A DNA stretch of 34,956 bases. Origin: a virus. Made by a program: the position numbers and the translations under genes. The stretch covers positions 1 through 34,956 of IMG/VR virus record IMGVR_UViG_3300021368_001352; one strand, 5' to 3'. Shown here piece by piece: positions 3,684 to 27,078 of this stretch (positions are counted from its first letter, which is position 1; the number at the start of each line of letters is the position of its first letter). The notes below the pieces were generated by a model, which was not told the origin of the DNA, ran no database searches, and was given only the letters and a program-made list of their open reading frames with translations.

Positions 3684-3874
3684 TGGACATCCCCGACTCT
3701 CCGCTGCAGATGCAACGTGAGTGGATCATTGAGAGGCTTGACGAGCTGCCGGAGGGTTCGGTGGTGACTTTGCCGATCGAGGAGTATCGCGCAATGGTCA
3801 TGCGGCAGCTTCAGCTGCATGACCTGATTGCAAGCCAGCAAAGACTTTTGGAGGAACATGTCCCGGACTATTGA
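3683..3874 (+). CDS. Small hypothetical protein (63 aa)
   Basis: Starts by TGATG coupling to the previous gene. Predicted helical and acidic, with RLDELPEGSVVTLPIEEYRAM in the middle, a pattern that recalls short phage regulatory or antitoxin-like strand-helix modules but without a clear family. Its last 17 nt overlap the next gene, whose ribosome site lies inside it. Function unknown. Confidence 0.65.
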   Translation: MDIPDSPLQMQREWIIERLDELPEGSVVTLPIEEYRAMVMRQLQLHDLIASQQRLLEEHVPDY

Positions 3875-4094
3875 GAACATTGGCCTCACCATGCTCCGGT
3901 GGGGCAGCAAGCGCCCTGTGCTGCTGCAACGTCCACCGAGCTGGACAGTGCAATATCTGCGGCCTCTGCCTGCAGATAAGCCACCAATCAATGTCACGCC
4001 GCTCGGTCTGGCTGGCATTTGGCTAATGAGAAGAGCCAACCCGCTTTCTTACGTCAACGCAAACGGCAGTGCCATCAAGGTCACTTTGCCTTAA
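3858..4094 (+). CDS. Hypothetical protein (78 aa)
   Basis: Start chosen at ATG 3858 because GGAGG at about 3850-3854 lies at an ideal distance. A longer reading from 3828 would skip this site. The protein is Pro/Leu/Arg-rich (MSRTIENIGLTMLRWGSKRP at the N-terminus) with a hydrophobic stretch PLGLAGIWLM. Not recognised. It overlaps the end of the preceding gene by 17 nt. Confidence 0.6.
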   Translation: MSRTIENIGLTMLRWGSKRPVLLQRPPSWTVQYLRPLPADKPPINVTPLGLAGIWLMRRANPLSYVNANGSAIKVTLP

Positions 4095-4118
4095 AATTGC
4101 ACCTTACACTTTTTACCA

Positions 4119-4505
4119 ATGCGGAACGTTTTTTACGACAGCAGTTCTTTAGGCAAAGCTATTTATATCGCAGACGTTCAGTCTCTCACGCGGAATGATC
4201 TAAACGTATTAGAGCGTGAGCTTAACTTGGCGATTGAGAATATGAGAGTAAAAATGCATGAGGAGAGAGACACTACTGAGCTTGATTGGCTGCATAAGCT
4301 CAGCGTAAAGCTAAAAATCTGCGAGCAATTTACTACTCGAATCAAGCAGGTAAAAGAAAACGACCTTTCAAAGGTCGAGTCTTACCACCTTTCTTATTTC
4401 AGGCAGGCAGTGTCTGCCTTGATCGGCCCGCTTCAGGCTGATCAGCTTTACGAAAAGGCGCGTCAAGATGCGCTTTTCCAAATCGGCAAGGAGTCAAACT
4501 CTTGA
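4119..4505 (+). CDS. Hypothetical helical protein (128 aa)
   Basis: Soluble and almost entirely helical, with heptad-like segments at about residues 25-50 and 55-85, so it may be a coiled coil. It has no motif I recognise. It sits 24 nt after the previous gene and overlaps the next by 4 nt (TTGA). The codon choice is slightly more A/T-rich than its neighbours, which may hint at a separate origin. Confidence 0.75.
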   Translation: MRNVFYDSSSLGKAIYIADVQSLTRNDLNVLERELNLAIENMRVKMHEERDTTELDWLHKLSVKLKICEQFTTRIKQVKENDLSKVESYHLSYFRQAVSALIGPLQADQLYEKARQDALFQIGKESNS

Positions 4506-4720
4506 ACAAGTTCCAGTGGGATGACAATCACCCCCAAGCTCAATATGGCGATGGCATCAGCCATCCCAGGAAAGGATCTAAGACCAAGCTGTACAAGCTC
4601 TTGGTCCGAAATGCGCAGATGGCTGCGATGAGGGTTGAGCTGAAGGCAGAGACCAAGCAGGACGCAATGCGCTACGGCAAGGCGCGTTGGCCTGGAGCTG
4701 CCATTGAAGTGGTCAAGTGA
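4502..4720 (+). CDS. Small basic hypothetical protein (72 aa), TTG start
   Basis: The start is TTG at 4502, supported by AAGGAG about 9 nt upstream and a 4-nt overlap with the previous stop. The next in-frame ATG would remove half the protein. It is basic (HPRKGSKTKLYKLLVRNAQM) with a compact C-terminus (KQDAMRYGKARWPGAAIEVV) resembling a small strand-helix-strand fold. Function unknown. Confidence 0.65.
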   Translation: MNKFQWDDNHPQAQYGDGISHPRKGSKTKLYKLLVRNAQMAAMRVELKAETKQDAMRYGKARWPGAAIEVVK

Positions 4721-6677: not shown

Positions 6678-6875
6678 CTACTTAGGTTCTTTCAACAGGG
6701 TCTTTTCGTTGTAATAAGGGCCTTTTTCATGCATTTCGACCACATCACGCACCCACGGCACTAGCCAATCATTGACTTGTGAGCATTGATCCCAGTTAAC
6801 AGGCTTGGCGCACTGCACAACCACAGTCGTCCAAAAAGCGCTGATGAAAGCCCAAGCCGTATACAACTCACTCAC
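6678..6875 (-). CDS. Small membrane-associated protein (65 aa)
   Basis: Starts GTG at 6875, overlapping the end of the C39 peptidase gene by 8 nt. Residues 6-22 (TAWAFISAFWTTVVVQC) are hydrophobic and could be a membrane anchor or uncleaved signal. A cysteine at 22 recalls a lipoprotein, but the preceding VVQ is not a good lipobox. The rest is soluble, Trp-rich and basic at the end. Its place in the lysis block suggests a lysis accessory or spanin-like role, which is inference. Confidence 0.6.
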   Translation of the reverse strand: MSELYTAWAFISAFWTTVVVQCAKPVNWDQCSQVNDWLVPWVRDVVEMHEKGPYYNEKTLLKEPK

Positions 6876-7611
6876 GGACCAAAATCACCCAGCCAGTCTT
6901 AGGGCCATCAGCTTGCCACCGCTGATGGAACGCAGCCTGCCTCACTCGCACATTCCGTCCCAAGTGCGGGTTGCTGTGGCCTCCCTTTTCCATTTCGGGA
7001 TAGCCGCGTGGGTCTTGCATGATCCACTCAGGGTCGCTGCTGTTCTTGCCTGCATATCCGCTAATCACGGAATAGTGCCCGCATCCCAAGCCATTACACA
7101 TAGGAGGCTCACCAAGCAGCATGTTTCCGGCATGAAGCCAGCCAACGATGACTGGCCTGCCGTGCTCAACCTCATGCTCAACTAAAGCAGCATCACCGTC
7201 CTCTCGAAACTCAGCGTGCAAGCCAAGGCTGCGTAATGCTGCCAGTTGAGCCTCTACGGACGTGGTGTCTCCGTACTTGGCGCGGATCTTGTTGTACTCA
7301 TCATCTGTTTCAACTTTCTTGTAATAGGCAGCCACCATGGCTGCGGCTGAGCTGAAGCATTCCCGATAGCCAGTGCCTGACTTGTTATCGAGTTGCTTGA
7401 AGTAGGGCATATAGATCTGCTGGTCATAGCCGCTCTCCTTCCAAGCTTGGAACCAGTCTGTGTCTTCCTCCAGTAGTCCCTTTGGCACTGACTCCTCAAG
7501 CTGTTTAATTGCAGCCAGCTGATGGGGCGTACCACGGAAAAACTGGAAGAACGGCAACAGAGCAAGGCCCATGGCCATAAACAGCAGGGTCAGTTGGATG
7601 ATGCCGGACAC
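6868..7611 (-). CDS. Membrane-anchored C39-type (papain-like) cysteine peptidase
   Basis: 247 residues. An N-terminal hydrophobic helix (about 4-25) forms a signal anchor, placing the rest in the periplasm. The catalytic domain has the peptidase C39_2 pattern: Q73 in MPYFKQLDN, nucleophile C85 in RECFSSAAAMVAAYY, H179 in CGHYSVISGY and D200 in MQDPRGY. Such peptidases cleave peptides; here the target may be peptidoglycan cross-links or an envelope protein. No lysozyme-, amidase- or endopeptidase-type endolysin is visible elsewhere in the window, and small membrane proteins flank it, so it may be the lysis enzyme. Start is GTG at 7611, two codons after the upstream stop. Substrate unproven. 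Confidence 0.8.
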   Translation of the reverse strand: MSGIIQLTLLFMAMGLALLPFFQFFRGTPHQLAAIKQLEESVPKGLLEEDTDWFQAWKESGYDQQIYMPYFKQLDNKSGTGYRECFSSAAAMVAAYYKKVETDDEYNKIRAKYGDTTSVEAQLAALRSLGLHAEFREDGDAALVEHEVEHGRPVIVGWLHAGNMLLGEPPMCNGLGCGHYSVISGYAGKNSSDPEWIMQDPRGYPEMEKGGHSNPHLGRNVRVRQAAFHQRWQADGPKTGWVILVRE

Positions 7612-7614
7612 GAC

Positions 7615-7788
7615 CTAGTGGTCAACTCTTGTGTCAGGCAACAGCATCTCGCGCACATGCTTGACCGCCAGGTCATCAAGGTCGTTGTCAGTCCTTGCGA
7701 CGATTTTTTCCAGCATCGCCACGATCAACTCTTTGAATGACCGTGATTTCCATGCGGTCATCAAGATTGGCTTGAGGATTAAAAGCAT
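7615..7788 (-). CDS. Small hypothetical protein (57 aa) in lysis block
   Basis: A frame not longer than 57 codons, from ATG 7788 (MLLILKPILMTAWKSRSF) to TAG 7615. It has a hydrophobic N-terminus followed by a helix (KELIVAMLEKIVARTDNDLDD) and an acidic-basic end (HVREMLLPDTR). It fills the gap between the C39 peptidase and the 84-aa membrane protein. Small proteins of this shape (hydrophobic tip, then DNDLDDLAV-like helix) occur near lysis genes of cyanophages as I recall, with no known function. Confidence 0.6.
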   Translation of the reverse strand: MLLILKPILMTAWKSRSFKELIVAMLEKIVARTDNDLDDLAVKHVREMLLPDTRVDH

Positions 7789-7815: not shown

Positions 7816-8070
7816 TTAGTTCCTATTGCTATGTCCTTCCAATCGCGCCACTGACTGCTCCAGATTCGCCAGTCGCGCAAAAATCTCTTGATCGCGAGTC
7901 CTGATGTCTGCGTGGAGCACATCAAGTCGGCTGGCTAAGTTGTCGACAGCGGTCGTAAGCCGTATCAGGGAGTCACGGCCCTGCTGGTTTTGACGGCTCA
8001 TGCCCGTCAATCCTGCAGACGCCACGCCCACAGACGCTCCAGCCACAGCAGCCCAGACTTCAACCACCAT
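7816..8070 (-). CDS. Membrane protein with coiled coil, holin/spanin-like (84 aa)
   Basis: Residues 5-24 form one hydrophobic Ala/Val/Gly-rich helix (VWAAVAGASVGVASAGLTG). Residues 35-80 form a heptad-patterned coiled coil (SLIRLTTAVDNLASRLDVL ... IFARLANLEQSVARLEG). One membrane helix plus a coiled coil fits class III holins, holin-associated hemolysin-XhlA-like proteins or inner-membrane spanins. It is divergent from the holin-like gene at 8094 with only 23 nt between the start codons. Confidence 0.65.
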   Translation of the reverse strand: MVVEVWAAVAGASVGVASAGLTGMSRQNQQGRDSLIRLTTAVDNLASRLDVLHADIRTRDQEIFARLANLEQSVARLEGHSNRN

Positions 8071-8093: not shown

Positions 8094-8375
8094 ATGGCAG
8101 AAAGCAAGGAAGCGCAAGGCCAAGAGCAAGAAGACCACAGCAATAGCTGGTTAGGCGACTTTGTCCGCCTGACGATCATGATTTGGGCGATGGGCGTGAT
8201 TACTGCTAATTATTTGGGCATTTTTAAGCAGTCAATAGACGTGACTTTCAGCGCGAGTTTGCTGAGTTCAACGGCAGCAAGCTACGGCTTATCGGTAGGC
8301 CGTAACGGCCAGAAGAAGAAAGAGGAGAAGAGCGTTAGCCTTGAAAGCAAAACCACCACTTCAGCCACCAAATGA
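8094..8375 (+). CDS. Holin-like membrane protein (93 aa)
   Basis: Acidic, Gln/Glu-rich N-terminus (1-18), hydrophobic helix 21-42 (FVRLTIMIWAMGVITANYLG), a second moderately hydrophobic segment 49-67 (VTFSASLLSSTAASYGLSVG) and a highly charged Lys/Glu tail. Two membrane segments with a charged tail fit class II holins, which form lesions that release or activate the lysis enzyme. It leads the plus operon of secreted proteins, overlapping the next gene by 4 nt (ATGA). The holin role is inferred from topology and position. Confidence 0.65.
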   Translation: MAESKEAQGQEQEDHSNSWLGDFVRLTIMIWAMGVITANYLGIFKQSIDVTFSASLLSSTAASYGLSVGRNGQKKKEEKSVSLESKTTTSATK

Positions 8376-8863
8376 AGCGAACACTTTTGGTATTGGGCAT
8401 CACATTAGCGGCTGCAATGCCAGCCAAAGCTGATATGACCCACAAAATTATGTCTTCAATTTCACTGCAGGTTGGTGGTGCGGTGACCAGCGCAGATCGA
8501 ATTGGTTCTTCCTTTGCGATCAGCGGCAGCGGTGTGGATACGACCGACGGCACCACAGCAAACACCATTTCAGCCGGGACCATCACTTCTGGCATCTACG
8601 CACCGGGGACGATTGCAGCCACGCAGGACACCCCAGGCGAAGCCTTCTCGTTTAGCCAGAGCTACACGCAAGGTGATGCTGTCCCGACATCAGCCGTGAC
8701 GACTGGTGCTGCCGCTAATTTTGGCAGCATTGTCAGTACTGCACATGGCGTGGCAGGCGACCTAGCAGGCACCATCGCCTCAGATGGAACCATGACCATC
8801 ACAGCCGGTGGAGCTAACACCTTGGCAATCGGTCAACTCACTACAGAGATCACAATCAAATGA
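8372..8863 (+). CDS. Secreted protein of unknown function (163 aa)
   Basis: Clear Sec signal peptide: MKRTLLVLGITLAAAMPAKA with a likely cut after AKA (residue 20). The mature part is Gly/Ser/Thr/Ala-rich with no charged clusters or cysteines, and a strand-rich, repeat-like pattern (SAGTITSG, SYTQGD, TITAGGANT). It could be a periplasmic or surface beta protein. First of three secreted proteins joined by 4-nt overlaps, which implies coordinated expression. Not a recognised virion component. Confidence 0.75.
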   Translation: MKRTLLVLGITLAAAMPAKADMTHKIMSSISLQVGGAVTSADRIGSSFAISGSGVDTTDGTTANTISAGTITSGIYAPGTIAATQDTPGEAFSFSQSYTQGDAVPTSAVTTGAAANFGSIVSTAHGVAGDLAGTIASDGTMTITAGGANTLAIGQLTTEITIK

Positions 8864-9279
8864 TCGTATTGCTGTTGTTGTTGATCGCCGCCCCAGCTGC
8901 GGCGATTCCTGTGGTGCCTAACTTCCAACAAGGCACCCTTAAGTCCACAACAACGACAAAGACCAAGGTCAATGAGGTCATCAACTCTTATGAGTACCGC
9001 ACTGGCTATGAGCTAAGCGTGTCTGGCACCAATATCAAGCCAGACACATCCATCGCTCCAATGGGTCTGACCACAACCACCAACAATCTCAACGGTGTCT
9101 CTAGTGTTTGGCGCGGTCTCGATCCAGCGTCTAAACCTTCCTGGAGCATTGTTGAGGAAGGTGGTTCTTTCCAGCTGGTAGAAACTTTAAACGGACCTGG
9201 CCTCGTTAACCACACAATTATCAACCGCGAAACTGACATCGAGTCCATCACTGAGACCACAAGTACCTTTACCCAATGA
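8860..9279 (+). CDS. Secreted protein of unknown function (139 aa)
   Basis: Signal peptide MIVLLLLLIAAPAAA with a likely cut near residue 15. The mature region is Thr/Ser/Asn-rich (KSTTTTKTKVNEVINSYEY, then LSVSGTNIKPDTSIAP and RETDIESITETTSTF) and strand-like, with no cysteine. Starts by ATGA overlap with the previous gene and ends by ATGA overlap with the next. Function unknown; the Thr-rich composition would suit a surface-exposed or adhesin-like protein. Confidence 0.75.
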   Translation: MIVLLLLLIAAPAAAIPVVPNFQQGTLKSTTTTKTKVNEVINSYEYRTGYELSVSGTNIKPDTSIAPMGLTTTTNNLNGVSSVWRGLDPASKPSWSIVEEGGSFQLVETLNGPGLVNHTIINRETDIESITETTSTFTQ

Positions 9280-10034
9280 AGCGAGTCGTCGCAGCATTAC
9301 TGCTACTTTCTGCTCCAGCTCAAGCCCAAGTTTCAAGCACCGCTGCACCAGTAGCCAACAGCTCTGGTTCGGTGACCAATCAAGCTGTGCAGGTGGTTCC
9401 GAGCCGTCAATTTACTAATACTTACGGTGGAGGGATTAGCTGCCAAGGTGCAACGCTAAACATCAATCCCTTCTTCAGTACAACAACTAGCTGGGCTAGG
9501 CCGTATGAGTCGCACTACAACGAGCCGGTCTACGACAATCTCGATATCACTGGCGCGTTTGATTCGGAAGGCAACCCCATCCCCGATGGCAACCCCGATA
9601 ATCCGGGTTCTGTCCTCTTCTATCAACCTGTTCGCACAGGTCAAAAAGATAACTTCTCGATCAATGGCGGCATTACAGCAACGATTTCCGTTCCACTAGA
9701 TCGACACCACGTCAGAACTTGCCGTGCAGCAGCAGAGAAACAAGTAGCACTGCTTGATACCAAGATTGCCGAGCAAAGGCTCATCTACGAGATCAAGCGG
9801 ATCAAGAACTGCGCTGACCTGTTGAAAGATGGCATCATCGTGCGTGGTGTTTACGCCCAGATCTGCAAAGACGTATCACTGACTAATCCGCCTGGAGTCC
9901 TGCCGCCCCACAAGCACCCAATCACTTTCCCAAAGCCCGCCTCAGATCGCGAATGGCTTGATTCCGGTGACGCTGCGAAGCCCTCCGCTGCTGTAAGGAT
10001 TCCAGTTTCTCCTTACGGCCAAGCTTCTGATTGA
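9276..10034 (+). CDS. Secreted protein of unknown function (252 aa)
   Basis: Signal peptide MKRVVAALLLLSAPAQAQ with a likely cut after AQA. The mature protein has four cysteines and is strand-rich to about residue 140 (GGGISCQGATLNINPFF, NFSINGGITATISVPLD). A long helix follows (RTCRAAAEKQVALLDTKIAE to YEIKRIKNC), then a proline-rich linker (NPPGVLPPHKHPITFPKP). The last 37 residues are encoded opposite the minus gene at 9922. The strand domain plus helical arm suggests an envelope protein or assembly partner of the two preceding secreted proteins. No family recognised. Confidence 0.75.
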   Translation: MKRVVAALLLLSAPAQAQVSSTAAPVANSSGSVTNQAVQVVPSRQFTNTYGGGISCQGATLNINPFFSTTTSWARPYESHYNEPVYDNLDITGAFDSEGNPIPDGNPDNPGSVLFYQPVRTGQKDNFSINGGITATISVPLDRHHVRTCRAAAEKQVALLDTKIAEQRLIYEIKRIKNCADLLKDGIIVRGVYAQICKDVSLTNPPGVLPPHKHPITFPKPASDREWLDSGDAAKPSAAVRIPVSPYGQASD

Positions 10035-10716
10035 TCTTCTTCACCACCTTCTTCGTCAAAGGCTTGGCGATCTTCTGCAGGATTGACGCGACTGGCTTGG
10101 CAAAGATTGCGGCAGTCGTCGCAAATGCAGCTGTCATTGCAATCGAAACCGTTGGTGCAGCGTCAGGAATGTAGTTGTTCAGCACTTGTCCAACGGGCAC
10201 GGGATCCCAAAGCTTCACGCACTTGCCATCCTGCAGCTCATATCCCGCAAGTACCTTTGTCCCTAATTTGTTAAACGATCCGATTTCTTTCGCTCCAAAA
10301 GGTGGACAGGGTGGATCTTTTGGCAAGTTTGGAACGTCGGGACTCACACCTGACGCATTCGGGAGAGCTGCTTGAGCCGGACGTGAGACACCCGGCTCTT
10401 TTATGACATCAGGGTCAATCTTTGGTGCTGGTGGTGTCCCTTTGATTGCTGTGCCTGCTGTGATGCTTGGTGCGTTGAACGAAGGCATGTTGCCGCCACA
10501 CACCACGAAATTGCCTCGTGGGTCAGTGTCATAAGCATCGGCATTGCCTGGTTGCGAATCGCGTGTCTCTACACAGCCCGGTATCTCTGCGACAGGAAAA
10601 CCGAGAAGCAGCGTGACTGGTGGCGCACTTGGAATACTCTGTGGTGGCATTATTTGCCACGACGGAATCTCTGGTACGGAGACTGTCCGTTGTTGGATCT
10701 CAGGAATCTCCGGCAT
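9922..10716 (-). CDS. Proline-rich membrane protein with basic C-terminal tail (264 aa)
   Basis: Residues 1-160 are rich in Pro, Ser, Ala and Asp, with four or five cysteines (near 48, 73, 127 and 146) and little predicted structure. About 187-212 is a hydrophobic Ala/Thr-rich helix (SIAMTAAFATTAAIFAK). About 213-264 is a strongly basic helical tail (KKVVKKINQKLGRKEKL ... RRALGK). This points to an extended domain on one side of a membrane and a positively charged anchor on the other. Its 3' end is antisense to the secreted protein gene by 113 nt. Its ATG shares CATG with the plus gene at 10715. Function unknown. Confidence 0.65.
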   Translation of the reverse strand: MPEIPEIQQRTVSVPEIPSWQIMPPQSIPSAPPVTLLLGFPVAEIPGCVETRDSQPGNADAYDTDPRGNFVVCGGNMPSFNAPSITAGTAIKGTPPAPKIDPDVIKEPGVSRPAQAALPNASGVSPDVPNLPKDPPCPPFGAKEIGSFNKLGTKVLAGYELQDGKCVKLWDPVPVGQVLNNYIPDAAPTVSIAMTAAFATTAAIFAKPVASILQKIAKPLTKKVVKKINQKLGRKEKLESLQQRRASQRHRNQAIRDLRRALGK

Positions 10717-11029
10717 GAAGTCAGAACGGTTTACAGCAGGTCAGCTCTGGATTGAACGTAACCGCAGACGCGAAGGGCCGCCTGTTGTTTACACCGTATT
10801 GTGCGGCAAATCTGCCAGGCCGTTTACCGACCCAAAAGCGATCCTCAAATGGGTCAAATGGCCCAAAGGTACGCCAACTGGTGATGCCTTACGCGAATGG
10901 CTTGCGTCGTTTGAGCAGAAAGCTGAGACACCCGCGCCAGAACTTGATATGGCAAAAATCAAGGCTGAAGGTTTCGGGCCTGAAGCTCATGACGACGATC
11001 CAACCGCCAACACCAAGATGGTGACATGA
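10715..11029 (+). CDS. Hypothetical protein (104 aa)
   Basis: Start chosen at ATG 10715 (MKSERFTAGQLWIERNRRRE), with AGGA about 8 nt upstream. A longer in-frame reading from 10544 lies wholly antisense to the 264-aa gene and looks artefactual. Soluble, with an N-terminal strand region (PPVVYTVLCG), then DPKAILKWVKWPKGTPTGDALREW, and an acidic disordered end. Not recognised. Its start is divergent from, and overlaps by two nt, the start of the 264-aa gene. Confidence 0.65.
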   Translation: MKSERFTAGQLWIERNRRREGPPVVYTVLCGKSARPFTDPKAILKWVKWPKGTPTGDALREWLASFEQKAETPAPELDMAKIKAEGFGPEAHDDDPTANTKMVT

Positions 11030-11136: not shown

Positions 11137-11325
11137 CTACGGAGCGGCTATCGCTAGACCTAGTTCCCAAGCTGTTAGATCAGCCTCTGTTCTGCTAGAG
11201 CGTCGGCGTTGTTGAGCGGGAGTCCTTTTGCTAGACAATCGGCGCTGCTCACCCCGAATAATCATCGGGTTTGGCCTGATCAGCCCTTGAGAACCTCCGG
11301 GACGCCGGGGGTTTTCTTGTGTCAA
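11137..11325 (-). CDS. Doubtful small Arg-rich ORF (62 aa)
   Basis: A TTG-initiated frame overlapping the end of the 77-aa membrane protein gene by 4 nt (TTGA). It encodes MTQENPRRPGGSQGL, then two 12-residue Arg/Ser repeats (QRRLSS and QRRRSS cores) and ends LTAWELGLAIAAP. In favour: the overlap and the in-frame repeat. Against: codon use (AGA, AGG, CTA, ATA) unlike the neighbours, and an intrinsic-terminator-like hairpin on the opposite strand covering its first codons. Otherwise the 292 nt from 11030 to 11321 hold no gene. Confidence 0.3.
   Translation of the reverse strand: MTQENPRRPGGSQGLIRPNPMIIRGEQRRLSSKRTPAQQRRRSSRTEADLTAWELGLAIAAP
11294..11318 (+). terminator. Rho-independent terminator, plus strand
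   Basis: CCTCCGG, loop GACG, CCGGGGG (7 bp including one G-T pair, extendable by two A-T pairs), followed by TTTTCTT. Read on the plus strand it would end transcripts from the gene at 10715, whose stop is 265 nt upstream. That leaves a long 3' UTR or a separate small RNA between 11030 and 11293. Confidence 0.6.
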
Positions 11326-11555
11326 GGCAGCTTGAACGGCACAGCCGGTCCAGTGCTGGTTGGCAACTCTGGCATGATGTCGTCGACCTGACCAGGCAAC
11401 ATGTTGGTCAGCGTTTCTGTCAGCTCTAGCTTCAGCTCGCTGATGTACTTGCTGGTTAGCGCAGGAATACGGGTGTAGAGCAGCGCCGATCCAGCAACCA
11501 TGCCCGCTGACATCACAAAGGACGCCACGGACATCACATTAAAAAGTTTTTGCAT
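11322..11555 (-). CDS. Small membrane protein (77 aa)
   Basis: Start chosen at ATG 11555 (MQKLFNVMSVASFVMSAGMV); an in-frame GTG at 11570 would overlap the upstream gene. Residues about 5-30 form one hydrophobic helix. A soluble helical/acidic tail follows, with a pattern SKYISELKLELTETLTNMLPGQVDDIMPELP. I recall similar proteins in marine cyanophages without known function. It is the last confident gene of the minus late block. Confidence 0.7.
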   Translation of the reverse strand: MQKLFNVMSVASFVMSAGMVAGSALLYTRIPALTSKYISELKLELTETLTNMLPGQVDDIMPELPTSTGPAVPFKLP

Positions 11556-11560
11556 GGGTC

Positions 11561-11755
11561 TTAAATGCACTCCTCCATGCTACGTCGCTCGTAATAGCGC
11601 TTCAATTTGTCGCATTCCCTAGCTTTGCTGTGTTGCCCAAACTGATCAAACAACACTGCTCGTGCCTGCTCATAGCGAATAGCAGTTGGCAGCAGTTCTG
11701 TTGGGACTCGACTGCCCATCGGAGAAAATCTGTTGCCGTTGAGTTTGGTGCTCAT
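11561..11755 (-). CDS. Small hypothetical protein (64 aa)
   Basis: Basic, helical, soluble: after a flexible start (MSTKLNGNRFSPMGSRVPT) it has PTAIRYEQARAVLFDQFGQH and a charged end (RECDKLKRYYERRSMEECI). Two C-terminal cysteines. Located just after a terminator and 5 nt before the small membrane protein gene, so these two genes need read-through or their own promoter. Function unknown. Confidence 0.65.
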   Translation of the reverse strand: MSTKLNGNRFSPMGSRVPTELLPTAIRYEQARAVLFDQFGQHSKARECDKLKRYYERRSMEECI

Positions 11756-11830: not shown

Positions 11831-12193
11831 TCAGAAGCTGTACTTCAGGCCAAGCTTCGTGCCAACTGAAAGCTCATCACCAGTGATGCCGCTCAGCTCG
11901 CCGTAGACAGACACATTGTCGGATGCTTGAATCGCACCACCAAACTTGCCAGCAAACTCAAGCTCGCTTTCAGCACCGTTGGGCATCACAATCGCAGGGC
12001 CGCCCTGGATGTAATAGCTGTAGGCACCGGAAGAACCTTCAAAGCCGACATCCAGATTGAGCGTTCCACCCAGATAGTCGTCGCCGTAGGAACCGCCGTT
12101 GAACTCAGGGTTGACGTAGACGTTGGCGAGTGCAGAGGAAGGAACCAATGCAACTGCCCCAGCGGCTGCACCAAAAACAAGACGCTTGATCAT
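11831..12193 (-). CDS. Porin-like / outer membrane beta-barrel secreted protein (120 aa)
   Basis: Signal peptide MIKRLVFGAAAGAVALVPSSALA (cut after about residue 23). The mature part is alternating strand-like Gly/Tyr/Ser-rich sequence (NPEFNGGSYGDDYLGGTLNL, SYYIQGGPAIV, VSVYGELSG) ending TKLGLKYSF. A C-terminal aromatic Phe after alternating residues is the outer-membrane barrel signature recognised by the BAM machinery. At about 97 mature residues it is small for a full barrel and may oligomerise or be a truncated relative of host proteins. It resembles secreted proteins I recall from marine cyanophages. It lies at the distal end of the late operon, directly before a terminator. Confidence 0.75.
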   Translation of the reverse strand: MIKRLVFGAAAGAVALVPSSALANVYVNPEFNGGSYGDDYLGGTLNLDVGFEGSSGAYSYYIQGGPAIVMPNGAESELEFAGKFGGAIQASDNVSVYGELSGITGDELSVGTKLGLKYSF

Positions 12194-22388: not shown

Positions 22389-25300
22389 CAGCTCGTTACC
22401 TTGAACAACCCTTTGTTGATCCCCAGTGTAGCCAGCGCACCGCGATCATCCAAGGGCTGGTGGGTTGCACTGATGTCGACGTAGCCGTCCTCATCAATGG
22501 TCAAACTGTCGATCCTGTAGATACGCTTTGGCTCTTCTTTGATTTTAAGCGTAAAAATTGAATCAAAATACTGAGAATCGCTGGTTTTCATTGAAGCTAC
22601 TGACATTGAACCAGACAAAACATCGCTTGCGCCGGGCCGCCAATAAAAAATGTCGTAACCGTCTGCGCTAACCAAGTCAGATGTAGCTGTGATGTTGCCC
22701 TCACCGTCAATGCTTCCGTTATAAAAACGACTGGTGTGTGTAGAGATTGAAATCACCTTGATGTAATCGCCAGCTTCAAGCTCAAGGGCAGAGCTTGGCG
22801 TCGTTTTAAAGCTGATCGTGTGATCAATATGCTTTCTCAGCAATAATCGATACTTGCCGACCAGCTCTGCATGAGTCCGATTGGTACAGAATTGAGTCAT
22901 GTCGATAGACTCTTCTGGATCAGCTTCTGAGCCTCCCTCAGCATCCGAGAATCGAACTTGAATGCTTTGCTGGGAAGAGAAACCGTTCTCAACAGACTCA
23001 TCTCGATATGTAATTGTTGCCTTGAAAAGCTGCCGTTCTTCTCTCGGCAAGAACGTTAGTTGCATGTCTTTCATGTTGCCATCAGTGAACAGTGCCTTGA
23101 CCTCACTGGAACCAGTCAAGAACGAATGAGCAGTATCAATCAAATAATCTTCAATCCCAGGAGTTAAGCCAGGACTGGACTCTTTCTTTGCCTTTGCCTT
23201 ATAAGGCAGCGATGGTTTCAAGGCGAAACGACCACCCTTAATGCTGAAGTCAAGAAAGTTCAAGGCAGCAGTGTTGAAAATAAATTCACGCAGATTAGTG
23301 CGATCCTCAAGAACACCATCAAAAGTCAATTCATTGGCGTAGCAGAACCTTGCCGCCTCAACCATTGAATCCCGATCGACAATCGTGCTTGGAATTCTGC
23401 TGCCAACGCCAATGCGATCACTGGTTAACAAGTTATATACGACCTCAGCGAAGTTGTTGGTTGGGCCTGTTGCGCCCGCGCTAGCTGGCTCTCCGGAGTC
23501 TGTAATCAGTCTTTCAACCTTGATTCCTTGTTTTACATAAGCACTCAACTGGCCAAGAGAAGTCCAATCTTTACCTGCAAGCAAGCGAAGGCCAAGCAAA
23601 GAAAGATCTTGATATTTAGGGGTATTTTCAACCTCAGGACGAATCAACTCGTTGACAAACGAGATTTGATGTTCTGGGCCATCCTGATGACTAGTTTTTT
23701 CTTGATCATATTTAGGATAATCAGCAATCGCATCATAGAAATTTAAAGTTTTAAGCTCGTCAATGCTTGCTTTTTCAATCTCAGTGACTGTTATTTCCAG
23801 CTCGTAGAACGAGTTTCTTTGTTGAGTATCGTCTGGCAATTGAAAGACAACTTTGTCTCCAACTCTGTATCCAACTCCAGGATCAACAATGCCCCAGGTC
23901 CAATGCTGGTCAACCACTGAAGTGGCTGTAATTTTCAGGCCAGTCCCTAGCTCAGAGTTGGTTCTATGTTGATTGTAAGTAGCTGCTGCATATTTTAGAT
24001 CAGCCTCATCAATACTGAATTCATATTCTGCAATCGCATACAACTTCTTATCCGGAGAAAGAATTTCGGTGTAACCACCCTTTTCCACCGGCCAGTAATA
24101 TCCACCTTGCTCGTCAACAGTCCTGAATACTCTTGTTATTGCATACACCCTTGTGCCATCAGACTCAGTTCGCTGCAACGTGCCGCGAATATATTGAAAG
24201 CCAGCCTGCGACTCATCAACAGCAAGCTTGACATCGTCCCTAAGGAGTCCGTTCCAAAATCCATTTCGGATGCCAGTTACACTCTCCCAGACGCCAAAAT
24301 AAGCTGGCCTGTTGTTGACAGGGTCAAACACTGAGTCCTGGAAAATATTATCCTCAGTGACCTGGGTAAAACCAGGGATGACATCTCTTTCAGCCTGAGA
24401 CCCAGGCAGGATCTTGTATTGAGCAGAAAGATTTGTATCGTCTGGCGCTTCATACAGGCCAGGATTTAGCGCACTTGCTTTTTGTACTCCGTCAAAATAC
24501 ACATTTATCATTTCACCTGCTGAATTCGTCTGAATATATGAATCAGTCCCGTTAGGGCCTGAAGTCCGCAAAACTTGCCTGCTTTCTGTGGGCACCCATC
24601 CCCTTCTGCCTGTCACATTCCTAATTAGTAGCGGGGAGTATTGATATTCGGCTCCAAGTTTTTGTATGACATCGCCCCTGTCCCACTTGGCCTCCAACAC
24701 CTCGCCAGTATTTGCATCTATAAGCACGCCATAAATCAACTCATCTCCATCATCCTGATAGTCAGCAGCCAAGTGGCTTACCTGCTTCCAGCTCGCGCTT
24801 TCAGGAAGATCACCCTCCTCATACTTGTTAAACTTTGAAACACCACCAATCTGAGTATTGTCGTTAACTAACAAAAACTCGAACTCAGGATTTGACGCAT
24901 CTTTGTCTGTAATTTGAGCTGCAATTCCTGTGTAGCTGATACCAAATCTTTCTGTTGTGAATCTACTGCTGGTGTCAAACTGCCCAGTTAAAAGCAAAAC
25001 TCTTTCTGCTCCTATCCCAATATGGTTGTGTTGCGCCGTGCTTCCAGACACAGGGACGAATCTAAATTCGTACTGCCCCTCGTCATGATTAATCGTGATG
25101 GTGTTGTATTGAGGCTGCGAGGTGTTTCCTTTAACAGCAAAAATTCTGCCGTCAAGAATATCTACAAAGCCAGAGTCGCCACCTACACCTAAGCGCTTGG
25201 CCTCAAGCTTGAAAAAGCTATAGCGCGTTTGGAAGGTAGAGACTCGGCCCAACGCAAACGACTGGTTATCTTCTTCGTAGGACTCAAGGATAACGTTTTC

Positions 25301-26785
25301 CGGCTGAGAATTGACGTTAGAAAAGCTGTCAACACGCTTGAATACAACACTCTTAATGCCAATCTCTGTCTGATGACACTCACGATTATTGGTGACAGAA
25401 CCAATGTCAATGCGCTGCAGTTGCTGGCCAAAGTGACTATTTTGTTCATCTTCAGCCCTGACAAAGTAGCCGAATCCCGCCTCAGTGCATTTAAAACTGT
25501 ACTCTCTTGCTTCCGGGTCTCTACCAAGAGGCTCATTTCTTTTGGAAGTGCATTGAATTATGGAACTCCCAAACATGTACAAATCGCCAATATTTATAAG
25601 CGCATCTGCTTGGGATGCTCGTTGATTGATGGCAGTATTTACGTCTTGCAAGCCATGGGGAGGGAACCCTTCTGGGTCCTCACGAGTAGCTGACAGCTTG
25701 AATGTCAGCGTTTGACCTACCGCAATATCTGCTTGGCGGGGATTAGGAACGACGCCATTTAGCTCTTCCATCCCTTGGCGAGCCAGGTAAGGCCGAGAGT
25801 GACCATTGCCGTTTGGACCATTAATTTTTAAACGCTTCTGCCTTAGAGACTCTTTGTTGTCGAAAACCTGAACGATCTCGTAAGGCAAGAAATACTCCAC
25901 TCCATTTGATATTGGCGAATGGCAGCCAAAGCTTCTTTGAGAAGTAGGTGTCCTTGACCCGGAAAACATTTTCTTGAATGTATTGCTTTGCTTGTCTTTT
26001 GCCTCAAAAACGTCTGCACTTTTAGACGGGTCAATAGACTCTAAGCTCCCATCAAAAGAATTGCTTGTGTTGACCCGATACTGGTCTTCTGAAAAGCCAA
26101 TTGCTGGGCTATTTTTAAAATATGCTTCGTATCGGGTGTCCTGATAATTCCTCAGAAGTTGCTCTCCTACGGCGATACCCTCTGGATCAGGAACCGCAAA
26201 CAGCTCAGATAAACCCAGTGTTGCCAGCATTTTCAATTCTTGGTGCGAGCCTTTGCTCAGCAGCTGAGACCAAAGCATTAGTGCCTTGACTCGAACACCA
26301 CCAAATTGCTTTGGGACCTCTTGGCCGCCGCGATATTCTGTTTGCAATCTACTGTCAACTCTTTTCGTGAAAACAAGAGGGATGATTGTGCCTAAGGTCG
26401 CTAGGTCTTGAAAGCTGTCAAAGCCGAAAAGTTCAGCAAACTTTGTTTGTCCCCGAACATCAGCAGTTTGGATTGGATCACCGCCGCCTTTGGGCTCTTC
26501 TGGTTTTGGTGTAAGCAGATAAGCAGCCGCTGCAAACAACAGGCTGACTGCTATCTGCTTTAAAATTGGTACAGCAGCAGCGCCAGCTACAACGTCAGGA
26601 ATGTAGTCATACTCAGAGCCACGCTCTTTAGCCTTTTGATCCGCTAGACGGCAAAAACCCCAATATTCTTCAACCGTGATACCAAGCGCATCGATGATTT
26701 GCTGCTCTACCGGCAGTAGAGAGCGACGGGAGTAAGAGCGCTGCAGGGGATCCATGTCACCCGATGGTCCTTGAATTGCAGCCAT
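22388..26785 (-). CDS. Tail tip / host-specificity protein (gpJ-like, 1465 aa)
   Basis: The largest protein in the window, beside tape measure, gpL-like and gpK-like genes, matching lambda gene J in place. Near residue 75-95 is a hydrophobic segment (AVSLLFAAAAYLLTPKPEEP) that in such tip proteins may insert into membranes or act as a hub helix. Many strand-rich domains follow. The long central part (about 450-1000) is unlike lambda and may be the specificity region. An alternative start, ATG 26755 (MDPLQRSYSRR), removes ten residues and cuts the overlap with the upstream gpK-like gene from 79 to 49 nt. It probably forms the central tip and receptor-contacting part of the tail. Confidence 0.75.
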   Translation of the reverse strand: MAAIQGPSGDMDPLQRSYSRRSLLPVEQQIIDALGITVEEYWGFCRLADQKAKERGSEYDYIPDVVAGAAAVPILKQIAVSLLFAAAAYLLTPKPEEPKGGGDPIQTADVRGQTKFAELFGFDSFQDLATLGTIIPLVFTKRVDSRLQTEYRGGQEVPKQFGGVRVKALMLWSQLLSKGSHQELKMLATLGLSELFAVPDPEGIAVGEQLLRNYQDTRYEAYFKNSPAIGFSEDQYRVNTSNSFDGSLESIDPSKSADVFEAKDKQSNTFKKMFSGSRTPTSQRSFGCHSPISNGVEYFLPYEIVQVFDNKESLRQKRLKINGPNGNGHSRPYLARQGMEELNGVVPNPRQADIAVGQTLTFKLSATREDPEGFPPHGLQDVNTAINQRASQADALINIGDLYMFGSSIIQCTSKRNEPLGRDPEAREYSFKCTEAGFGYFVRAEDEQNSHFGQQLQRIDIGSVTNNRECHQTEIGIKSVVFKRVDSFSNVNSQPENVILESYEEDNQSFALGRVSTFQTRYSFFKLEAKRLGVGGDSGFVDILDGRIFAVKGNTSQPQYNTITINHDEGQYEFRFVPVSGSTAQHNHIGIGAERVLLLTGQFDTSSRFTTERFGISYTGIAAQITDKDASNPEFEFLLVNDNTQIGGVSKFNKYEEGDLPESASWKQVSHLAADYQDDGDELIYGVLIDANTGEVLEAKWDRGDVIQKLGAEYQYSPLLIRNVTGRRGWVPTESRQVLRTSGPNGTDSYIQTNSAGEMINVYFDGVQKASALNPGLYEAPDDTNLSAQYKILPGSQAERDVIPGFTQVTEDNIFQDSVFDPVNNRPAYFGVWESVTGIRNGFWNGLLRDDVKLAVDESQAGFQYIRGTLQRTESDGTRVYAITRVFRTVDEQGGYYWPVEKGGYTEILSPDKKLYAIAEYEFSIDEADLKYAAATYNQHRTNSELGTGLKITATSVVDQHWTWGIVDPGVGYRVGDKVVFQLPDDTQQRNSFYELEITVTEIEKASIDELKTLNFYDAIADYPKYDQEKTSHQDGPEHQISFVNELIRPEVENTPKYQDLSLLGLRLLAGKDWTSLGQLSAYVKQGIKVERLITDSGEPASAGATGPTNNFAEVVYNLLTSDRIGVGSRIPSTIVDRDSMVEAARFCYANELTFDGVLEDRTNLREFIFNTAALNFLDFSIKGGRFALKPSLPYKAKAKKESSPGLTPGIEDYLIDTAHSFLTGSSEVKALFTDGNMKDMQLTFLPREERQLFKATITYRDESVENGFSSQQSIQVRFSDAEGGSEADPEESIDMTQFCTNRTHAELVGKYRLLLRKHIDHTISFKTTPSSALELEAGDYIKVISISTHTSRFYNGSIDGEGNITATSDLVSADGYDIFYWRPGASDVLSGSMSVASMKTSDSQYFDSIFTLKIKEEPKRIYRIDSLTIDEDGYVDISATHQPLDDRGALATLGINKGLFKVTS

Positions 26786-27078
26786 CCGCCTTCATAGAAA
26801 GAAGCCAACCCATAACTGCCATCAAGGCAATGGATTAACCCGACTGTGCCCACTTTAGCGGCATCCGTCTTGACGCCCCATAGCTCAAGCTGCTCCTCAA
26901 AAATCGAATAGTCCTTTAGACGCAACCGTCGATACCAAGTCCTTGTTGGTTCGGGAGAACTGATGCCATGCCAGTGCAGCACTGCTTTAGCCAGAGTGAG
27001 GCAATCGGCAGCACCGTGCTTTTCAGGCACCGCTCCAAGCCTGTAAGGCATTCCGATGAGCTGATAGGGCTCAATCAA
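26707..27078 (-). CDS. NlpC/P60-like tail protein (gpK-like), possibly lacking the catalytic His (123 aa)
   Basis: HGAADCLTLAKAVLHWHGI (21-39) matches the Cys-helix motif of NlpC/P60 domains, with C26 as the nucleophile. Where the family normally has the catalytic histidine (H-V-G-I-Y-like), the sequence reads YGLASFYEGGW, with glycine at 90. Another histidine is at 83 (LIHC). So it may be a structural or degenerate peptidase. It lies between the gpL-like and gpJ-like genes, exactly as in lambda tails. TTG at 27078 starts it in a 4-nt overlap; the next in-frame ATG (residue 10) is an alternative. Confidence 0.75.
   Translation of the reverse strand: MIEPYQLIGMPYRLGAVPEKHGAADCLTLAKAVLHWHGISSPEPTRTWYRRLRLKDYSIFEEQLELWGVKTDAAKVGTVGLIHCLDGSYGLASFYEGGWLQFKDHRVTWIPCSALTPVALYCR

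Follow-up and report, generated by a model that had tools for sequence, protein, structure and literature searches.

The window, that is, the whole stretch of DNA analysed here, is a virus contig of 34,956 bases. Its major capsid protein has its nearest relatives, at ~50% identity, in the cyanosiphoviruses S-CBS3, S-LBS1 and S-CBS1. The contig contains a cassette of five genes (DUF6450, p564, p650, p848 and p570), which lies among several neighbours as follows:

6868..7611 (-): C39-family peptidase with an N-terminal hydrophobic segment, endolysin-like (phrog_10051 'endolysin', E=4e-59; Peptidase_C39_2, E=8e-7)
7615..7788 (-): s57, a small protein of 57 aa (phrog_2738)
7816..8070 (-): cc84, 84 aa, with an N-terminal hydrophobic stretch and a coiled-coil-like C-terminus, divergent from DUF6450 (phrog_26178, E=5e-25)
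8094..8375 (+): DUF6450, small holin-like membrane protein leading the operon (phrog_721; Pfam E=8e-13, PHROG E=4e-15, hydropathy)
8372..8863 (+): p564, Syn9 gp167 family (phrog_564, E=3e-58), Sec-exported, predicted all-beta in a low-confidence model
8860..9279 (+): p650, Syn9 gp166 family (phrog_650, E=1e-47; DUF6322, Pfam E=1e-34), Sec-exported
9276..10034 (+): p848, Syn9 gp165 family (phrog_848, E=3e-77), Sec-exported, with four invariant Cys (alignment, model)
9922..10716 (-): p570, Syn9 gp164 family (phrog_570, E=2e-54), with a proline-rich N-domain, one C-terminal transmembrane (TM) segment and a basic tail
11322..11570 (-): 82-aa protein with a TM stretch (phrog_568, 'plasmid stability'), kept as a neighbour beside p570
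11831..12193 (-): cyanophage OMP-like beta-barrel (PF24653, Pfam E=1e-32), Sec-exported, a conserved neighbour

Both the profile matches of p564, p650, p848 and p570 to phrog_564, 650, 848 and 570 and the order p564-p650-p848 with p570 adjacent assign the block to the Syn9 gp164-gp167 cassette. All three junctions between the plus-strand genes (DUF6450/p564, p564/p650 and p650/p848) are ATGA four-base overlaps, confirming the three ORFs and the operon with 4-nt joints described in an earlier, sequence-only reading, whose holin-like leader is identified by the Pfam match to DUF6450 (E=8e-13). The DUF6450/p564 overlap is found in 130/130 loci; the joints stand as a description of the window, but the one between p650 and p848 proved peculiar to its own clade. 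The fifth member, p570, is encoded on the opposite strand and was outside the set recognised in that reading; it shares 113 nt with p848 in a tail-to-tail overlap (9922-10034). Such an overlap is present in 108/108 loci, the commonest lengths in relatives being 53, 80 and 113 nt.

The arrangement C39(-) s57(-) cc84(-) / DUF6450 p564 p650 p848(+) / p570(-) recurs with little change in 150 loci, mostly from IMG/VR, and in 121 of these 150 the C39 peptidase gene is a neighbour of the cassette. Its match to an endolysin PHROG (E=4e-59) bears out the closeness to lysis genes previously noticed in the window. cc84 has a weak match to the Rz-like spanin family phrog_89 (E=0.026), and the podovirus homologues of s57 lie within the cassette or adjoin it. 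In the podovirus P-GSP1, a single ORF (3806-4534 of the examined stretch) looks like a fusion, its N-terminal part matching p848 and its C-terminal end s57. On the other side of the cassette, a plus-strand ORF (10544-11029, phrog_37139), conserved in 105/150 loci, faces p570; an ATG near 10715 is its likely true start. Given the TM stretch of the phrog_568 neighbour, its name, 'plasmid stability', is doubtful. The porin-like PF24653 protein is distantly related (27%) to S-SZBM1_90, a member of DUF680/PhCOG173 that has been detected among the proteins of purified virions of S-SZBM1.

In a simple scan of the 48 window genes, the best four signal-peptide scores belonged to p564, p650, p848 and the beta-barrel protein at 11831-12193. 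Relatives of p564 (135/145), p650 (100/142) and p848 (at least 97/128, a lower limit since some starts are mis-assigned) have an AxA site following the hydrophobic stretch, so the clear Sec signal peptides proposed for all three products extend to their relatives. A lipobox search among relatives of p564, p650 and window-type p848 found none, against two in 156 presequences of the overlap-type p848 described below, and a search for a lipoprotein ORF across the window was likewise negative. Sec signals without lipoboxes support the earlier view of an envelope-directed exported set, and export and envelope targeting of the three proteins are well supported and highly probable. The mature regions had also been described as Gly/Thr-rich, which does not hold for p848: it is not mainly so, contains four Cys that are invariant in the alignment of relatives, and is predicted at low confidence to comprise a disordered N-terminus, strands forming a beta region and then a 42-residue helix. 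p564, called 'OMP1 protein' in part of the records, is predicted to be all-beta, also at low confidence. The proline-rich N-domain, single C-terminal TM segment and basic tail of p570 are present in 248/248 sequences and suggest, by the positive-inside rule, an N-out/C-in topology; the N-domains mostly contain 2 or 4 Cys. DUF6450 (93 aa) has one clear TM segment in the window; hydropathy gives two for its podovirus homologues, as does the P-SSP7 record. The class II holin criterion used here was two TM segments in fewer than about 95 aa.

The low-confidence AlphaFold2 models gave no significant fold match in the PDB, and a comparison with viral models yielded p848 relatives as its recognisable matches. 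No profile or fold match connected the cassette proteins with any membrane-active protein. A TolC/OEP or curli/CsgG identity for p848 was discarded, with no such match in Pfam, PDB sequences or Foldseek, as was a chance-level match of p564 to a spore-appendage (Ena) protein (E=0.11). In cyanobacteria the Sec pathway also serves the thylakoid lumen, and the exported proteins might act there or in the periplasm during infection, for example on photosynthetic membranes. The four invariant Cys of p848 and the 2 or 4 of most p570 N-domains would suit an oxidising compartment, and the genes are restricted to phages of cyanobacteria; as a rule, however, they have no link to photosynthesis genes, and in podo- and siphoviruses they lie near lysis and terminase genes, which makes such a role quite unlikely.

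The cassette is not peculiar to this phage. It is a block long catalogued among hypothetical cyanophage genes, represented in Kyanoviridae by Syn9 gp164-gp167 and P-SSM4 T4-GC 234-237, and the search for synteny in related phages that the sequence-only reading had proposed found the order largely kept across 150 loci and the genes in ~400 cyanophage records. The phage records matched numbered 397 for p564, 410 for p650, 443 for p848 and 397 for p570, essentially all of them from cyanophages, and S-TIM5 and MED4-117 also contain cassette genes. DUF6450, p650, p848 and p570 are present in all three tail types, that is, in myoviruses, siphoviruses and T7-like podoviruses. In the T7-like cyanopodoviruses, profile searches located these four genes between the tail fibres and the small terminase gene and found p564 missing from those examined. 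The cassette was not found in Syn5, P60, S-CBP1 or S-CBS3, and no p564, p650, p848 or p570 was found in S-SZBM1 or in the examined part of S-CREM2. A scan of 84,980 prokaryote genomes matched 9 contigs, all with other cassette genes and probably phage sequence; a host origin was rejected on these grounds, and no cellular homologue was found.

The same distribution bears on whether the products are structural. That myo-, sipho- and podoviruses share these genes although their virions are unrelated speaks against a virion component, in keeping with the earlier view that they are not structural. Minor virion-associated or assembly-related proteins, despite their signal peptides, are improbable, more so than a thylakoid or periplasmic role. 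Several cyanophage virion proteomes do contain many hypothetical proteins, among which p848, missing from some annotations, could have been overlooked in searches of annotated ORFs. Against this, these genes carry no such label in the records of S-TIM5 and Syn9, where structural proteins are marked, and the p848 of P-SCSP1h has no match among the deposited P-SCSP1u virion chains, whereas the P-SCSP1h fibre does. The virion proteomes of S-SZBM1 and S-CREM2 were set aside as deciding evidence, as no p564, p650, p848 or p570 was found in these phages (S-CREM2 having been examined in part).

The start of p848 differs between the window's clade, which forms one group in the tree (support 100/100), and most relatives. 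In 167 of the 294 loci having both p650 and p848, no ATG, GTG or TTG for p848 occurs near the p650 stop; in 166 of these 167, an ATG lies inside p650 in another frame, at -166, -169 or -172 from the p650 stop. The sequences share ancestry, so that neither this count nor those that follow are independent. The p848 frame from -172 to the p650 stop is free of stop codons in 129/129 unique sequences, for which synonymous recoding of p650 gives an expectation of about 11%, and stops are common just upstream. In the group with an ATGA start, which includes the window's clade, the frame is open in 11/104 sequences, and in 0/115 after a cleaner regrouping. What creates the hidden ATG is the third position of a p650 codon that a conserved Trp follows. 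Seven different amino acids are encoded by this codon, and yet its third base is A in 138/138 unique overlap-type sequences (a group that, unlike the 166/167 count, was defined by the ATG); in the window's clade it is A in 0/91. A Shine-Dalgarno-like match of at least 4 bases at a fitting distance precedes 66 of the 138 hidden starts, compared with about 10% of control positions. The relatives thus appear mostly to start p848 at a conserved ATG 166-172 nt inside p650, in another frame. A programmed frameshift or non-AUG start was also considered, and the conserved ATG and open frame fit the data better. The extension precedes the conserved signal-peptide core and cleavage site, so mature p848 should be much alike in both groups. 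No strong constraint on protein sequence was found in the p650/p848 overlap by synonymous diversity, which is clearly lower only near the hidden start (0.38 versus 0.52 in the window's clade). The S-SCSM1 and S-SCSM2R records lack p848; a hidden start implies that gp165 is misannotated or unannotated in some public genomes and can be missed by proteomics against annotated ORFs.

In T4-like phages, the cassette lies among replication genes and not next to lysis genes. An ATAAATA late element was found in 34 of 68 T4-like upstream regions, nearly always at -27 to -34 from p564. In the Syn9 stretch examined, this element precedes several structural genes and no replication gene, and gp167 has none; over 48 kb of Syn9, gp165-gp167 (25211-26858) are the sole minus-strand genes. 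At the site that the cassette occupies in podoviruses, P60 carries an annotated endolysin, S-CBP1 carries a C39 lysozyme and T7 has its holin. A late-type promoter fits poorly with surface remodelling or superinfection exclusion, in which the exported proteins would coat or alter the outer membrane and block adsorption or injection of related phages. p564, p650 and p848 are also well conserved, whereas exclusion genes usually vary fast. Such a role nevertheless agrees with the export and probable envelope location of the proteins, with the beta-barrel OMP gene alongside in many loci and with the wide sharing of the cassette by phages competing for the same hosts; it is unlikely, and ranks next after outer-membrane disruption at lysis, which appears the best supported of the functions first considered.

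We infer late timing, the p570 topology, an interaction of the parts and a role in lysis. The cassette would act on the host envelope late in infection, with DUF6450 as a putative holin and the C39 protein as a candidate endolysin. p570 would sit in the inner membrane, oriented (N-out, C-in) so that its proline-rich domain faces the periplasm. After export by Sec, p848, p650 and p564 would attach to the outer membrane or the cell wall and interact with p570. The outer-membrane step would then most likely be performed by the cassette, as it is by spanins in other phages. We give a probability of roughly 0.35 to the cassette being an outer-membrane disruption set that does the spanins' job. A survey of spanins lists marine cyanophages as the largest spanin-less group and mentions, as a possible alternative, an N-out/C-in inner-membrane protein acting with an OMP (PMC6139136). 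One or more cassette genes were found in 15 of the 17 spanin-less phages examined (P-HM1, P-HM2, P-RSM4, P-SSM2, P-SSM4, P-SSM7, Syn1, Syn33, S-RSM4, S-ShM2, S-SM2, S-SSM7, Syn19, Syn9 and P-SSP7), the other two being Syn5 and P60, with no matches, and S-PM2, S-SM1, S-SSM5, S-CBS4 and P-SS2 having been left out.

Besides this coincidence and the lack of a lipoprotein ORF in the window, the lysis model is favoured by Sec signals without a lipobox, by the cassette being divergent, in most loci, from the genes for the C39 endolysin-like protein, s57 and cc84, by the podovirus site, by the late element in half of the T4-like loci, by the constancy of the p570 features, and by the sharing of cassette genes among three tail types with no cellular homologue. 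It is weakened by the phages in which the cassette was not found (the spanin-less Syn5 and P60, S-CBP1, S-CBS3, S-SZBM1 and the examined part of S-CREM2), by the lack of p564 in the podoviruses examined, by the absence of a fold or profile match to a membrane-active protein, by the position among replication genes in T4-like phages, by Syn9 gp167 lacking ATAAATA and by a p570 topology that is predicted only. The broader proposal is more tentative still: marine picocyanophages of three tail types may have in common a lipoprotein-free machine for outer-membrane disruption, in which a proline-rich protein of the inner membrane (N-out/C-in) works with exported partners, one of them encoded by a hidden-start gene.

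The families themselves have long been known as hypothetical cyanophage genes; the hidden start, the spread of four of the five families over all three tail types and the connection with spanin-less phages were not found in the literature searched. The cassette genes are among the most widely shared genes without an assigned function in phages killing Prochlorococcus and Synechococcus. The published literature leaves open how these phages breach the outer membrane when no spanin can be recognised (PMC6139136), and the cassette offers a small candidate gene set for how phages without known outer-membrane lysis genes break out.

Compared with known systems, the window resembles Syn9 gp164-gp167 and P-SSM4 T4-GC 234-237 in families, in the order p564-p650-p848 and in having p570 next to p848. 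It differs in having DUF6450 in front, where Syn9 has it elsewhere or on the other strand, and in its p650/p848 ATGA joint, p848 of Syn9 starting 166 nt inside p650. The uncultured podovirus MedDCM-OCT-S37-C6 and the cyanosiphovirus MED4-117 share with it DUF6450-p564-p650-p848 followed by an opposite-strand p570; the former, however, belongs to Autographiviridae and has other replication and virion genes, and the latter contains distant homologues, with p848 starting 139 nt inside p650. The cassette is not a spanin by membership. The lipobox of an o-spanin is absent from p564, p650 and window-type p848, and the i-spanin features of an N-terminal TM segment and a periplasmic coiled coil are lacking, p570 having its TM segment at the C-terminus with a basic tail and p848 a signal peptide with a cleavage motif in place of the N-terminal TM. 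Although the cassette has no sequence relation to the lambda Rz/Rz1 spanins, both have genes that overlap and lie close to lysis genes, a component rich in proline, and an inner-membrane component with exported partners.
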